Part shown: positions 2,658 to 26,005 of the stretch, piece by piece
Position numbering within the stretch: the first letter of the stretch is position 1
How the letters are laid out: the number at the start of each line of letters is the position of its first letter
From: a virus
IMG/VR virus record: IMGVR_UViG_3300011013_000047
Location: 1-34,073 of that record
Reading direction: 5' to 3' (one strand)
DNA: 34,073 nt
Made by a program: the position numbers and the translations under genes
Notes under the pieces: generated by a model
Told to the model about the DNA's origin: nothing
Seen by the model: the letters and a program-made list of their open reading frames with translations, nothing else
Database searches by the model: none

Positions 2658-4063
2658 TGACAAAAGCAAGAGACTTAGCAAATATAATATCAGGTGGTTT
2701 TACTGAAAGCGATATACCAAATTTATCAGCATCTAAAATTACATCAGGTCAATTTGCAGACGCAAGAATTGCAGATTTAGCAGCAACAAAATTAACTGGT
2801 AATATTGCAGATGCTAGAGTACCTGCGTCAGCAGTTACACAACACGTTACAGCAACAGATTTAACACCAGTAAGACACGATATTTTAACTCTTGCTCTTA
2901 AACAAGCTACACAAGAAAATTCTACAAAATTTAATTTACCTAATTCATCTATTACAAAATTTGAAGCAGATGCAGATTTTAATTTAGCAGGTTCAACAAC
3001 AATGGCGAGAAATGCTAGTGAATATATTTCTCCTGTAGCATCAAGTGCTTTAACAGTTACTAAAGTTGGTTCGCCAACACATTCTACAAGTCAATCAACT
3101 TCTTGGTCAACCTCATCAATGTCGTTAGATGATAGTAATAAAATTTATCTTGATGGTGGAGCTGATGGAGTTTTTGATATTTTACCTTTACGTAGTGATG
3201 GTGCAGGAAATATGACTATTGAATGTATGCACTATTATACAGACACAACTTCTTGGAAAAGAGTATTTGGTGTTGATGTAACAAGTTATGGAGGTAGTGG
3301 TGGTGCTGAATATATAGATTTACACGGACAAACAGGAACTAATCACTATTATAGAAATGCTGGAACGAATACTCCATCAAGCGGTGGTTGGACTTCATCT
3401 CAATATGCAGTTTCAACAAGTGCTTGGCATCACCTAGCTGTAGTTTGCGAGGGTTCTGCACAAGCATTTTATATTGATGGAACTAGACAAGAAACAAATA
3501 GTAATGGTGCTGGTTCTGGTGGTATTATTAATTTAAGATATGCTTTTCCAACTGGAGCAAGAGCAGGATATTTTGATAATTTTAGAGTATCAAAAACAGC
3601 TAGATATACAGGTTCATCTTTTACTGCTCCTAGTGATCACTTTACTAATGACAGCAATACTTTATGTTTAGTACAATCTATTGACCAAAGCGATGGTGCT
3701 ACAACTTTTACAGATGAAGGTACTGCAAGTTCTTCAGTAAGTGCAACAGGTACAGCGTTAGGAACAACTAATGTTCCAACTTCTGCTGTGACTGATGTTT
3801 CAGGAGTTATGCTTTTAAAAAATGCAAGTGGAACAAATACTTTAGGAACAGATGTAAAAGTTTATTTTACAGCTAACAATTCTGCTTGGACAGAAGCAAC
3901 TAGTTATACAGATGCAGGAACTTTTTCAACAGGAATTAAAATGATTAAACTTGGTAAGACAACTTGTACAAGTGGTTCAGATGTTAGATGGAAAATTGTT
4001 TTTGCTAATCAAGCGGCTTCAAGCAAAGAAGCACAAATTTTCGGTATTGGTTTAAATTATTAA
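2657..4063 (+). CDS. Tail fibre protein with C-terminal LamG-like domain
   Basis: A 468-residue protein. The first about 75 residues carry a short alternating repeat (SASKITSGQFADARI, AATKLTGNIADARV) typical of the shaft of marine phage tail fibres, where each repeat adds a turn to a trimeric rod. Residues about 165-330 form a LamG-like sandwich (WHHLAVVCEGSAQAFYIDG, GYFDNFRVSKTARYTGSSF, then a DHFTNDSNTLCLVQS strand). A C-terminal beta domain ends KEAQIFGIGLNY. The start overlaps the previous stop (TAATG). It likely binds the host surface and is the second LamG protein in this tail cluster. Confidence 0.75.
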   Translation: MTKARDLANIISGGFTESDIPNLSASKITSGQFADARIADLAATKLTGNIADARVPASAVTQHVTATDLTPVRHDILTLALKQATQENSTKFNLPNSSITKFEADADFNLAGSTTMARNASEYISPVASSALTVTKVGSPTHSTSQSTSWSTSSMSLDDSNKIYLDGGADGVFDILPLRSDGAGNMTIECMHYYTDTTSWKRVFGVDVTSYGGSGGAEYIDLHGQTGTNHYYRNAGTNTPSSGGWTSSQYAVSTSAWHHLAVVCEGSAQAFYIDGTRQETNSNGAGSGGIINLRYAFPTGARAGYFDNFRVSKTARYTGSSFTAPSDHFTNDSNTLCLVQSIDQSDGATTFTDEGTASSSVSATGTALGTTNVPTSAVTDVSGVMLLKNASGTNTLGTDVKVYFTANNSAWTEATSYTDAGTFSTGIKMIKLGKTTCTSGSDVRWKIVFANQAASSKEAQIFGIGLNY

Positions 4064-4090
4064 TTACTGATAAAATTATGAAGTATGTTT

Positions 4091-4333
4091 ATGAAATACA
4101 TTTTACTTTTACAAATTTGTTCTTCATTAACTAATGAATGTTCTGATACTTTTCAAAATAAAACAATATATAATTCGTGGTATGAGTGCGGTCGTGCAGG
4201 ATATGTTAGTGCGGTGTCAATACTAGACACAATGGGTTATAATGCAGTTAACGATACTAAAAGCCAAATACGTTTTGCTTGTAAAGAAGTTGGAGCGCTT
4301 GTAAAGAAGTTGGAAAAGAATTATAAAAACTAA
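4091..4333 (+). CDS. Small exported Cys-containing protein
   Basis: About 80 residues. The N-terminus MKYILLLQICSSL is hydrophobic and signal-peptide-like; the rest holds four spaced cysteines and ends in a Lys-rich helix. An ATG two codons upstream (4085) is also possible; 4091 gives the better signal sequence. The block W-x-x-C ... IRFACKEV recurs in the protein at 6920-7147 (SDCLKSKR ... VRFACGKV), so the two look like distant paralogues. Function unknown; an envelope or periplasmic role is inferred. The sequence 4284-4321 carries a short internal duplication (CTTGTAAAGAAGTTGGA twice) near the C-terminus. Confidence 0.6.
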   Translation: MKYILLLQICSSLTNECSDTFQNKTIYNSWYECGRAGYVSAVSILDTMGYNAVNDTKSQIRFACKEVGALVKKLEKNYKN

Positions 4334-4350
4334 ACATAAGAAAGTTATTT

Positions 4351-5112
4351 ATGTTTAAAGGACACAGAATTATTGTTATTGGAGATGCTCACGATTCTCC
4401 AAAAATTCCTCAAGATCGATTTAAATGGATTGGTCAATATATTAATAAACATCAACCTGATTATATAATTCAAATAGGAGACTGGGCTTCTTTTGATAGC
4501 TTAAGTTATTTTCAAAAAAATGCTTCACAAGCTGGTAAGCTTAAAGATGCTTATATGATAGACATAGAATCTTTAAGAAAATCTATAGATATATTAGATA
4601 AATATATTGATAATCCTAGTATTCCCAGACATTGTACGTTTGGTAATCACGAGCAGCGTGTTCATAAGTTTGAAGAAAATATTCCAGAAATTCAAGGTAT
4701 GATGAAAAAAGAGCTGTTTAATTCTTTTTTATTAAAAAACTGGAAAATTTCTCCCTACGGAGCTTTTAAAATTATTGCTGGGGTATCCTTTACTCATTGC
4801 CCCCTAAATATTATGGGAAAAGAATATGGTGGAAAGAATTGTGAGATACAAATAGCTAATGATGCTACAAATGATATAGTTTTTGGCCATACTCATAAGT
4901 ATCGTGATTGGAAATCCCCTAAAATAGGCGATAAAAATTTTGTTAGAATTATTAATGTAGGATGTGCGTTGCCATTTGGTCACGTTGAGGAGTATGCAAA
5001 GTTAAACCTTACTGGGTGGAGTTGGGGAATTGTAGAACTCGGTATATGGGATAATCATATCCAAGAGAGTCAATTCATCTCTTTGGATAGACTGGAGAAA
5101 CAATATGGATAA
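4351..5112 (+). CDS. Calcineurin-like metallophosphoesterase
   Basis: The 253 residues contain the full metal-binding signature of the calcineurin-like phosphoesterase fold: D12 and H14 in GDAHD, D44 in IGDWASFD, N99-H100-E101 in FGNHEQR, H149 in FTHC, and H180/H182 in FGHTHKY. It should hydrolyse phosphomono- or diesters with two bound divalent metals; the substrate cannot be read from sequence. It lies between tail genes and the lysis amidase, and its last codons overlap the 33-codon ORF that follows by 8 bases. Marine phages often carry such enzymes; nucleic-acid or nucleotide turnover late in infection is plausible. Confidence 0.85.
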   Translation: MFKGHRIIVIGDAHDSPKIPQDRFKWIGQYINKHQPDYIIQIGDWASFDSLSYFQKNASQAGKLKDAYMIDIESLRKSIDILDKYIDNPSIPRHCTFGNHEQRVHKFEENIPEIQGMMKKELFNSFLLKNWKISPYGAFKIIAGVSFTHCPLNIMGKEYGGKNCEIQIANDATNDIVFGHTHKYRDWKSPKIGDKNFVRIINVGCALPFGHVEEYAKLNLTGWSWGIVELGIWDNHIQESQFISLDRLEKQYG

Positions 5113-16595: not shown

Positions 16596-17096
16596 TTATA
16601 AAGCTAATCTGATTTGCTCTTTAGCCCACTTTTGGCTTTTCGCATCAGTTTCAACTTTTGCTAATTTGCCTTTGGCACTTGGTGTATAGTTTTTACCAAA
16701 CACTTTAGGATAATGCTCTACTAATGTATCATAAGCAAATTTTGCTCTTTCTACATTTAATACTTGGGCATTTTTAGCAAATATTATCTTATCCATATTA
16801 TTGATAGATATTTCAGTACCATTATCTTCTCTAGACAAATCTTTCATTTTATCAATGGTCTTGTCTAGTGTTTGCTGACATCTATCTAAATGGAACTTCC
16901 AAGATTGGATTATTGTACTCATATTAGCACTAGCGATCCAAGACCAATTCTTATCGTCTGCATCAGGTGCTATTACAGTATTTACATAATTTACTAACCC
17001 ATCCTTGATTTCCTCTTTTCTAGACTCATAATATGATCTCATATCATCTAGTCTATCATTAGAGTAATCTACAACTACGTCTGAACTCATAGTCAT
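16596..17096 (-). CDS. Early hypothetical protein, 166 residues
   Basis: Start MTMSSDVVVDYSNDRLDDMR with GGAGG four bases before the ATG and an ATGA overlap with the upstream gene. The sequence is helical and rich in Trp and charged residues (NWSWIASANMSTIIQSWKFH, KFAYDTLVEHYPKVFGKNY). No domain recognised. It and the 55-residue gene upstream form a two-gene unit next to the central promoter region, closed by a strong terminator, the usual place for first-expressed host-takeover genes. That role is inferred from position. Confidence 0.6.
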   Translation of the reverse strand: MTMSSDVVVDYSNDRLDDMRSYYESRKEEIKDGLVNYVNTVIAPDADDKNWSWIASANMSTIIQSWKFHLDRCQQTLDKTIDKMKDLSREDNGTEISINNMDKIIFAKNAQVLNVERAKFAYDTLVEHYPKVFGKNYTPSAKGKLAKVETDAKSQKWAKEQIRLAL

Positions 17097-17260
17097 ATAA
17101 CCTCCTTTGTTGTTAGTGTTGAGTTATAGATACCGAACAATTCAGCATCTACTTCAACTTTATTATCTTCATTACGAACTTCATATAGCTCTAATACCCT
17201 AGCCATATCTTTCGCATCCAAGATCAACTCATACCACTTTAACATATCATTAACATTCAT
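17093..17260 (-). CDS. 55-residue first early protein
   Basis: ATG at 17260-17258 with AAAGG eight bases upstream; TGA at 17095-17093 overlaps the next ATG. The product MNVNDMLKWYELILDAKDMA, RVLELYEVRNEDNKVEV is acidic and helical. It is the most promoter-proximal minus-strand gene. No family recognised; small acidic first-expressed phage proteins often bind host enzymes, which here is only a possibility. Confidence 0.6.
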   Translation of the reverse strand: MNVNDMLKWYELILDAKDMARVLELYEVRNEDNKVEVDAELFGIYNSTLTTKEVI

Positions 17261-17262
17261 AA

Positions 17263-17290
17263 TTTACCTTTCAGTTATAGTTAATAATCG
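17263..17290. promoter_or_regulatory. Possible divergent promoter hub
   Basis: Between the first early gene and the structured RNA is an AT-rich block (TTATAGTTAATAAT, 17274-17287) that gives -10-like hexamers on both strands: TATAGT or TAATAAT on the plus strand, TATTAA or TATAAC on the minus strand. Neither direction has a good -35 box. The position, just before the first stem of the RNA and just before the early ATG, is the main support. Confidence 0.35.
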
Positions 17291-17295
17291 TGCTA

Positions 17296-17739
17296 CCGCA
17301 CGGATACGTACAGAAAACAAGGAGGTATCCCAACGTCAAATACTTGGCAGCTTCAGCTGCGATCCAATCGCCTAATCTTTCATTAAAGAGGCGATTTGTC
17401 TATTTGACGTTTAGGATGGATACCTTGTTATTCTACGTACTTCCGTGTGTGTAGGAGGCTCCATAGGATAACGCAGCAATCTACATCCATTTATGTGATT
17501 GCAAGTGTTTTGTTCCGCTTAATATTTAAGAGGACAAAATCCGTATGGAGAAATCCCCACAGCGAAATGCCTTTAGCATTTTGCGAGGAGATACTATTGC
17601 AAGGAGGGTTTGGGAACTATTTGCAGTTCCCACCACTACCAATGGTAGTGTGAGTAGCTTAAACCACTAAAGTATCATAATAATGCTTGACAAGGACATT
17701 TAGAAAGTCCACAAACGGAAAGAAGCAGAATCATTATAA
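17296..17739 (+). ncRNA. Large structured RNA upstream of the small terminase gene
   Basis: No convincing ORF, visibly higher G+C than the genes around it, and about 12 helices drawn by eye. Module 1: 17297-17310/17434-17449, then 17316-17330/17418-17429, then an 11-bp perfect stem 17332-17342/17401-17411 enclosing hairpins 17347-17360 (GCAGC-TTCA-GCTGC) and 17366-17396 (AATCGCC/GGCGATT with inner TCTTT/AAAGA). Module 2: 17459-17465/17544-17550 enclosing 17476-17502 and 17508-17539. Then hairpin 17562-17584. Module 3: 17590-17595/17671-17676 (GATACT/AGTATC) enclosing 17611-17632 and 17634-17650. A last hairpin at 17694-17710 lies inside 17680-17685/17732-17737. G-U pairs (17298/17448, 17564/17582) fit only the plus strand. 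It may be a free RNA or the leader of the terminase mRNA. Confidence 0.7.
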
Positions 17740-18111
17740 ATGGACGACTTAACAGACAAGCAAAAGGCATTAGTTGATACTATCGTAGCAACAGGATGCT
17801 CTATTAAAGATGCTTCAATAAAGGCTGGTTATTCTACAAAAGGATCATCTGAAGCAGGGAGAGTAAGTGCTTCTCGCACACTACGTTTACCAAAGGTACA
17901 GAGTTATATGAGCAAATGTATTGCTAATACTCTAGGACTTGGTGCAGTAAGTGCGAGTAGGAAGATGATCGAGCTATCAAGTGGAGCTAGAAGTGAATAT
18001 GTTCAACTTGAAGCGAGTAGAGATATACTCGATCGAGTGGGAATGAGAGTACCAGACAAGGTATCTCATAATATACAAGGCGATATAAAGATTAACATCG
18101 ACCTGAGTTAG
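17740..18111 (+). CDS. Terminase small subunit
   Basis: 123 residues: MDDLTDKQKALVDTIVATGC then SIKDASIKAGYSTKGSSEAG, a helix-turn-helix of the type found in phage small terminases. SASRTLRLPKVQSYMSK and the C-terminal LEASRDILDRVGMRVPDKVS also match that family. It should recognise the packaging site on phage DNA and recruit the large subunit encoded about 1.1 kb downstream. Upstream is the large folded RNA, and an intrinsic terminator follows 4 bases after its stop, so RNA and gene appear to form their own transcription unit. No clear Shine-Dalgarno site. Confidence 0.8.
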   Translation: MDDLTDKQKALVDTIVATGCSIKDASIKAGYSTKGSSEAGRVSASRTLRLPKVQSYMSKCIANTLGLGAVSASRKMIELSSGARSEYVQLEASRDILDRVGMRVPDKVSHNIQGDIKINIDLS

Positions 18112-18115
18112 TTTC

Positions 18116-18142
18116 GTCTGTCGGTACACCAGACAGACTTTT
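18116..18142 (+). terminator. Intrinsic terminator after the small terminase
   Basis: GTCTGTC (18116-18122) and GACAGAC (18132-18138) form a perfect 7-bp stem with a 9-nt loop (GGTACACCA), followed by TTTT. It begins 4 bases after the small terminase stop. Confidence 0.75.
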
Positions 18143-18145
18143 GAC

Positions 18146-18300
18146 ACCGCCCCAGTTCGAGGGGTGGGGGCAAAATCACCCATCGATAGATGACTAGTGG
18201 AGTCAAACACACAACAAGGTTCATTTTAAGTTCGTTATCACCTTGTATAAATATTCTTTTAATTAAATAGTACGTTGCTTTGCCCATAGGTGTGTTTAAT
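18146..18300 (+). other. Structured leader between terminator and next gene
   Basis: This non-coding gap (18143-18308) holds CCGCCCC/GGGGTGG (18147-18153/18161-18167, one G-U). It competes with GGGTG/CACCC (18162-18166/18177-18181), so the two cannot form together. Further on, an 8-bp perfect stem AAACACAC (18205-18212)/GTGTGTTT (18290-18297) encloses ACAAGGT/ACCTTGT (18214-18220/18240-18246). The minus-strand frames here are not gene-like. It could be the 5' leader controlling the late operon or another small RNA. Confidence 0.4.
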
Positions 18301-25693: not shown

Positions 25694-25945
25694 ATGGCTT
25701 ACGCAACTGACAATCCTATAAAAAAGGTAGCTCAAATGGGTGGCAATTCTCTTTGGTATTATGCTGACGGAGATGCTACTTCAACGATCGTTGGTTCTGG
25801 GTACTTTAATAGTGCTTATGCCGAAGTAAAACAATTTGATATGATTCTTGTAGCAGCCACTACTGGTGGAACTGCAGAATCTGACTTATTAATTGTTTCT
25901 TCAGCAACTGGAGCAACGACTGTCACAACAACTAAATTAGCATAA
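25694..25945 (+). CDS. Small virion (decoration-like) protein
   Basis: 83 residues, MAYATDNPIKKVAQMGGNSL, WYYADGDATSTIVGSGYFNS, then strands FDMILVAATTGG and SDLLIVSSATGATTVTTTKL. Small beta-rich proteins with a W-Y-Y ... D-M-I-x-V pattern directly after the coat gene are common in phages and fit a capsid decoration or tail-proximal role. AAAAGGAG precedes the ATG. Confidence 0.65.
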   Translation: MAYATDNPIKKVAQMGGNSLWYYADGDATSTIVGSGYFNSAYAEVKQFDMILVAATTGGTAESDLLIVSSATGATTVTTTKLA

Positions 25946-25954
25946 AGCTAATTC

Positions 25955-25984
25955 GACTTAGGGGGAAGCAATTCCCCCAAAGTC
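25955..25984 (+). terminator. Strong hairpin after capsid genes
   Basis: GACTT/AAGTC plus GGGGGAA/TTCCCCC, 12 pairs with a single A-A mismatch, closed by a GCAA (GNRA) tetraloop. It starts 9 bases after the decoration-like gene. It lacks a U-run, so it may be a partial terminator or a 3' stabilising hairpin; either would give more capsid than tail protein, as the terminator after gene 10 does in T7. Confidence 0.6.
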
Positions 25985-26005
25985 ATCTGATAAATAAAAA
26001 CAAAT

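Follow-up and report, generated by a model that had tools for sequence, protein, structure and literature searches.

Large ornate RNAs fall, to our knowledge, into only a few classes, most of them without an established function. Two of those found in phages, GOLLD and ROOL, assemble into cages made of RNA alone (PMC12286853). These cages give a concrete model for the RNA described here, which is encoded in a 480-nucleotide gap of the virus record IMGVR_UViG_3300011013_000047 (34,073 bases; the whole record is called the window below). The gap separates early-type genes, running leftward up to 17260, from late genes that run rightward from terS, the gene for the small terminase subunit, at 17740. 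An initial annotation, made from the window sequence, had placed a large ornate phage RNA at this divergent early/late border. The position was confirmed, and the RNA is supported by covariation in many relatives, by a covariance-model match in a distant phage contig rich in guanine and cytosine (GC) and by the absence of matches in Rfam. Sequence comparison indicates that this is almost certainly a real structured RNA, previously undescribed, and in our best reading it is a noncoding RNA of ornate fold that phages encode, that stands alone and that represents a new family.

The RNA resembles GOLLD and ROOL in being large, elaborately folded, phage-encoded and noncoding, with very strong secondary structure, and resembles GOLLD further in having both conserved and variable parts. 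It differs from them in size, since the modular structured element that fills the gap in relatives spans about 330-620 nucleotides in the folded examples compared with about 660 and over 800, and in location, at the early/late border beside terS and not in tRNA islands. A search of the window for tRNA found none. Rfam 15 covers GOLLD, ROOL, OLE, IMES and phage packaging RNA (pRNA); at the gathering score no family matched the window or 16 relatives, and nothing relevant appeared up to an E value of 10 in 17240-18300. The GOLLD and ROOL models were thus unmatched. The same applied to OLE RNA, which shares the long, junction-rich character, and to IMES-1 to IMES-4, which share the marine setting and had been suggested for comparison in the initial annotation; its failure to assign a known family was upheld. 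A blastn search of the region against cultured phages gave no hit. No description of the element was found in the open literature, where coverage was partial, so this is not proof of novelty.

Modular structure and covariation

The three perfect stems reported earlier, 17332-17342/17401-17411 (11 bp), 17459-17465/17544-17550 (7 bp) and 17634-17640/17644-17650 (7 bp), agree with the sequence base for base. The single-sequence fold had z scores of -7.7 on the plus strand and -9.1 on the minus strand, none of the shuffles being as good on either strand, and the three lowest-energy 240-nucleotide segments of the 34 kb all lay inside this region. The GC fraction was higher than in the surroundings, as had been noted (0.385-0.425 vs 0.32-0.34 on the upstream side). 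The sole reading frames of the region were two GTG-started frames of 54 and 68 amino acids, which matched the nearest relatives only. We therefore rejected a coding explanation. The earlier statement that no credible frame exists here was confirmed, and frame conservation across the region, which would have told against the RNA, was not seen when these frames were compared in relatives.

Relatives were gathered through TerS, TerL and RNA-motif searches. These yielded more than 100 viral contigs with an element in the same gap, which were aligned in subsets and provided the comparison with marine phage genomes that had been proposed. Every contig that included both neighbours, among them most of the 57 type B contigs, had the element in the same gap and the same orientation, between the divergent gene or genes and terS. 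Module I occurred in several types. Type A, found in the window, is a three-way junction whose conserved strands read CUUGGCA and UGCGA. In type B the core is flanked by CAGUCAUCA and GAUACAAGC, and types C and D were rarer.

In the window, module I (17293-17456, plus strand) comprised an outer stem, an inner AACAAGG/CCTTGTT helix and a three-way junction in which CUUGGCA and UGCGA are each followed by a hairpin, as defined by the type A alignment (A1) and by R1, a covariance model built on type A module I. R1 placed the module at 17293-17456 with 118 bits, the window sequence being within its training set. The junction (17332-17411, plus strand) was closed by the 11-bp stem and contained hairpins at 17347-17360 and about 17366-17396, on the basis of the sequence, the fold and A1. 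Module II (17460-17550, plus strand; alignment A3) was a second three-way junction with a CCAUAG..GUAUGG closing stem and two hairpin arms. Three plus-strand hairpins followed in the fold. Hairpin III, GCGAAAUGC-cuuua-GCAUUUUGC (17562-17584), was present in the contigs L086, L010, L029, L015 and L025 with the stem altered in several, and hairpins IV (GGGAACU..AGUUCCC, 17612-17631) and V (CACUACC..GGUAGUG, 17634-17650, also evident in the sequence) had different stem sequences in L086 and L010. Hairpin V probably lies near the 3' end of the structured part. The motif AGGAG occurred four times within 17317-17605 of the RNA; across 35 relatives it was observed 40 times vs 18 expected, about twofold. 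GGAGG was without enrichment, and a ribosome-sponge reading was set aside for that reason.

The covariation alignments were built from sequence alone with MAFFT and also supplied the structures; for this reason, and because the sequences share ancestry, the following figures are not probabilities. In A1 (16 type A sequences, 53 pairs) standard pairs made up 89.3% of cells vs 73.8% in shuffles and 34-50% with the partners slid, with changes on both sides in 149 cells vs 52 in shuffles; in A2 (type B, 18 sequences) 90.4% were paired, with both-side changes in 74 vs 28; and in A3 (module II, 6 sequences) 95.1% were paired, with both-side changes in 22 vs 8.9. No shuffle attained the observed pairing or both-side-change values in the three alignments. 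The initial annotation had made its RNA depend on covariation in homologues, and in all three such covariation stood out from the shuffled as well as the slid controls. The agreement of three separately aligned modules carries more weight than the numbers themselves. In both types A and B, the junction nucleotides were invariant and the helices variable.

The covariation supports two three-way-junction modules, at 17293-17456 and 17460-17550. The annotation had drawn three such modules and two hairpins; two of the modules stood, and a third was not found. About 17655-17739 is a sequence-conserved, promoter-like block. Covarying conserved secondary structure of about 300 nucleotides or more, without a conserved frame, as characterises large structured phage noncoding RNAs in general, is found across modules I and II, with hairpins III-V recognised by fold and inspection.

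Two relatives, L032 (type A) and L035 (type B), had identical TerS proteins (122/122 residues) and differed in module I type, so the modules have been exchanged while TerS stayed constant. This bears on the suggestion that the RNA might act together with the terminase, like the phi29 pRNA. Position upstream of terS and terL, near the packaging genes as in phi29-type systems, is its sole support. The window phage, however, has a terminase of the TerS/TerL type, no Rfam family matched, phage pRNA included, and module I can be wholly different while TerS is identical. A phi29-like packaging RNA is therefore the least likely explanation, and we regard it as very improbable; the suggestion was weakened further by the gene order in the distant relative L374, described below.

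Probable strand

The fold energy of the window sequence alone cannot tell the strand, as the two z scores above show, so the earlier assignment to the plus strand, drawn from G-U pairs, is not backed by fold energy there. It gained moderate support from relatives. Among pairs predicted on both strands in A1, G-U exceeded A-C by 41:14. A separate count over conserved helices gave 182:107 over all related pairs and only 11:6 over independent pairs. Unpaired bases were purine-rich on the plus strand (A 0.39, G 0.22, T 0.30, C 0.09). The plus fold was better than the minus fold in 35 of 36 diverse relatives, with base composition accounting for about 10 of the 13 kcal/mol; after composition correction, plus remained better in 27 of 36 (Wilcoxon p = 0.004). 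On the reverse strand the aligner split a hairpin differently, so only a plus-strand model was used. Taken together, these comparisons favour the plus strand with moderate confidence.

The same data bear on a structured minus-strand RNA that would form the long leader of the divergent unit 17260-16596. The start of the divergent gene is about 30 nucleotides from the structured part, its promoter may lie inside that part, and in the window the minus strand folds equally well. Given that plus folds better across the 36 relatives after correction, that the loops are purine-rich on plus and that G-U exceeds A-C on plus in A1, we consider a minus-strand leader quite improbable.

A further alternative is a site acting as DNA, such as a packaging start, a replication origin or an operator array, in which the inverted repeats function in the duplex. 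Packaging sites often adjoin terS, as this region does, and a second conserved noncoding element follows that gene. The stems are mostly Watson-Crick (454 G-U pairs of 6643), and G-U and A-C changes are equal in raw pairwise counts. However, it is RNA that typically shows nested three-way junctions with compensatory change in the helices and no variation at the unpaired bases of the junctions. The best alignment has more G-U than A-C, and modules of types A and B have a position in common, not a sequence, while TerS is identical. A DNA-level site is thus unlikely in our assessment.

Limits of the RNA, the late promoter and a distant match

The last 75 or so nucleotides before terS were conserved as sequence and not as helices, which puts the probable end of the structured RNA near 17655. 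The block beyond it (17655-17739, plus strand; conserved in relatives) contains ACTAAAG at 17666-17672, TTGACA at 17687-17692 and CAGAAT at 17726-17731. It reads ACTAAAGTG..TTGACA-N33-CAGAAT, with an operator-like palindrome. TTGACA was found in 81 of 94 relatives vs 2 expected and [TC]AGAAT in 88 of 94. The spacing from TTGACA to AGAAT was 33 nucleotides in 69 of 75. At that distance TTGACA cannot serve AGAAT as its -35, which leaves the exact promoter reading tentative. From its conservation, the block is probably a late promoter with control sites. AGAAT lay mostly 11 or 14 nucleotides from the ATG, and since it is so close in most relatives the terS mRNA may be nearly leaderless.

In each genome where R1 matched, it did so at one place, besides weak reverse-strand shadows of the same place. 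Weak matches were obtained in the more distant relatives L080, L201 and L205 (E 0.002-0.005). A strong match was obtained in L374, a phage contig of 68% GC with a TerL 41% identical to that of the window; it scored 58.8 bits (E about 2e-11), a score partly built in, as the contig was retrieved by the junction-motif pattern. Most of its helices outside that pattern were also paired, and R1 matched none of about 27 other contigs retrieved by the same pattern, which had no terminase hits. In L374 a convergent NADAR gene (4008-4595, Pfam E 2e-21) follows the RNA and lies between it and the terminase genes. R1 gave no match on the relatives of L374 with 62% TerL identity, nor on the near or distant TerL-related isolates BcepC6B, Ss1, Mwe-JY08, VA-RY-3, Pmp11, Y3, Hodr and MEP301. 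Motif hits in bacterial genomes were attributed to chance, as 0 of 19 matched R1. The nearest isolate was Pelagibacter phage EXVC031P Hodr (TerS 58%, TerL 66%; host SAR11), in which the gap is occupied by a strongly folded element of another kind.

These arrangements bear most directly on the main rival, in which the RNA is the 5' leader of the late operon and acts in cis. Such a leader would be co-transcribed with terS and alter RNA polymerase or translation, for example as a processive antitermination RNA. In the window and in nearly all relatives the RNA lies directly upstream of terS in sense orientation, a place from which it would lead a very long late operon containing terS and terL. 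Given the strongly conserved promoter-like block between the RNA and terS, however, terS transcription need not include the RNA, and a leader of terS does not fit L374, where the RNA and the terminase genes have a convergent gene between them. We therefore judge a leader unlikely, at roughly one chance in a handful.

A stand-alone, noncoding, highly structured plus-strand phage RNA, running from about 17285 to about 17655 and acting in trans as a scaffold or ribonucleoprotein, is the explanation we somewhat favour. It starts from what was observed in the relatives, namely conserved structure with compensatory change, no conserved frame, a fixed position and orientation, and domain exchange, and it accounts for the conserved ornate structure, the module swap and the gene order of L374, as well as for a late promoter separate from the RNA. 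The RNA would start inside the divergent early/late intergenic region from its own promoter, fold as consecutive junction modules plus hairpins, and end ahead of the separate late promoter that would drive terS. By analogy with GOLLD and ROOL, it would most likely be made during infection and serve as a trans-acting structural or ribonucleoprotein scaffold. The candidate -10 of its promoter is TATAGT (17276-17281, plus strand), a weak element without a -35 at the standard spacing, and TATAAT-like hexamers were seen at the same place in several relatives (e.g., TATAAT in L200 and TATGAT in L164).

Several results count against a stand-alone plus-strand RNA. Upstream of the RNA the promoter scan neither recovered TATAGT nor gave a clear sigma-70 promoter, and downstream of it the plus-strand terminator scan found no intrinsic terminator. 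The asymmetry in A2 was weak (G-U vs A-C 16:13), and raw pairwise counts without helix filtering (112:114) were uninformative on strand. The L374 score is partly built in, as noted. Most relatives have terS as the next gene after the RNA, and for them a leader role is possible.

Neighbouring genes and significance

The small terminase gene (17740-18111, plus strand) was identified by Pfam Terminase_2 (E 1.6e-9) and PHROG 51. The intrinsic terminator that the annotation had placed after it (GTCTGT..ACAGACTTTT, 18118-18146) was not recovered by the terminator scan (loop limit 8 nucleotides) and lies within the second conserved noncoding element (18112-18300, plus strand). This element, defined by sequence conservation in relatives down to about 67% TerS identity, consists of GGGGTGGGGGCAAAA, a small hairpin and then ACACACAACAAGGTT, and has two similar G-rich/A-rich boxes about 45 nucleotides apart. 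It could be a packaging (cos/pac) site, or the promoter or leader of the next gene.

On the other side, a small divergent gene of 55 amino acids (17093-17260, minus strand) adjoins the RNA and is followed by a fast-evolving one of 166 amino acids, predicted to be all-helical (16596-17096, minus strand). A strong intrinsic terminator on the minus strand (16588-16556; 13-bp stem and T run) lies directly after the latter gene; given this terminator, the two genes may form their own short transcription unit. The 166-residue protein was 27-70% identical in relatives whose TerS was 76-88% identical. It gave a confident all-helical bundle prediction, and comparison with the PDB returned no significant match. 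Its gene lies beside the RNA within this lineage and was not found in L374 or Hodr. The protein was considered as an RNA partner, and this found no support. Elsewhere in the window, a strongly folded stretch between two late genes (25940-25985, hairpin GGGGGAAGCAATTCCCCC) had the lowest z of the window scan.

It is possible, and we put it forward tentatively, that the element represents a new class of phage RNA, large and modular, with domains swapped like cassettes between close relatives. Such an RNA would be abundant in infection and would work in trans as an assembly, either of RNA alone or of RNA with protein; the phages that carry it belong to an ocean lineage, and the isolate nearest to them has SAR11 as its host. 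The RNA is compact and modular, and its natural variant series in many phage contigs makes structure and function comparable across modules; the fixed genomic position and the one distant GC-rich member also aid such comparison. SAR11, the host of the nearest cultured relative Hodr, is an abundant ocean bacterium.
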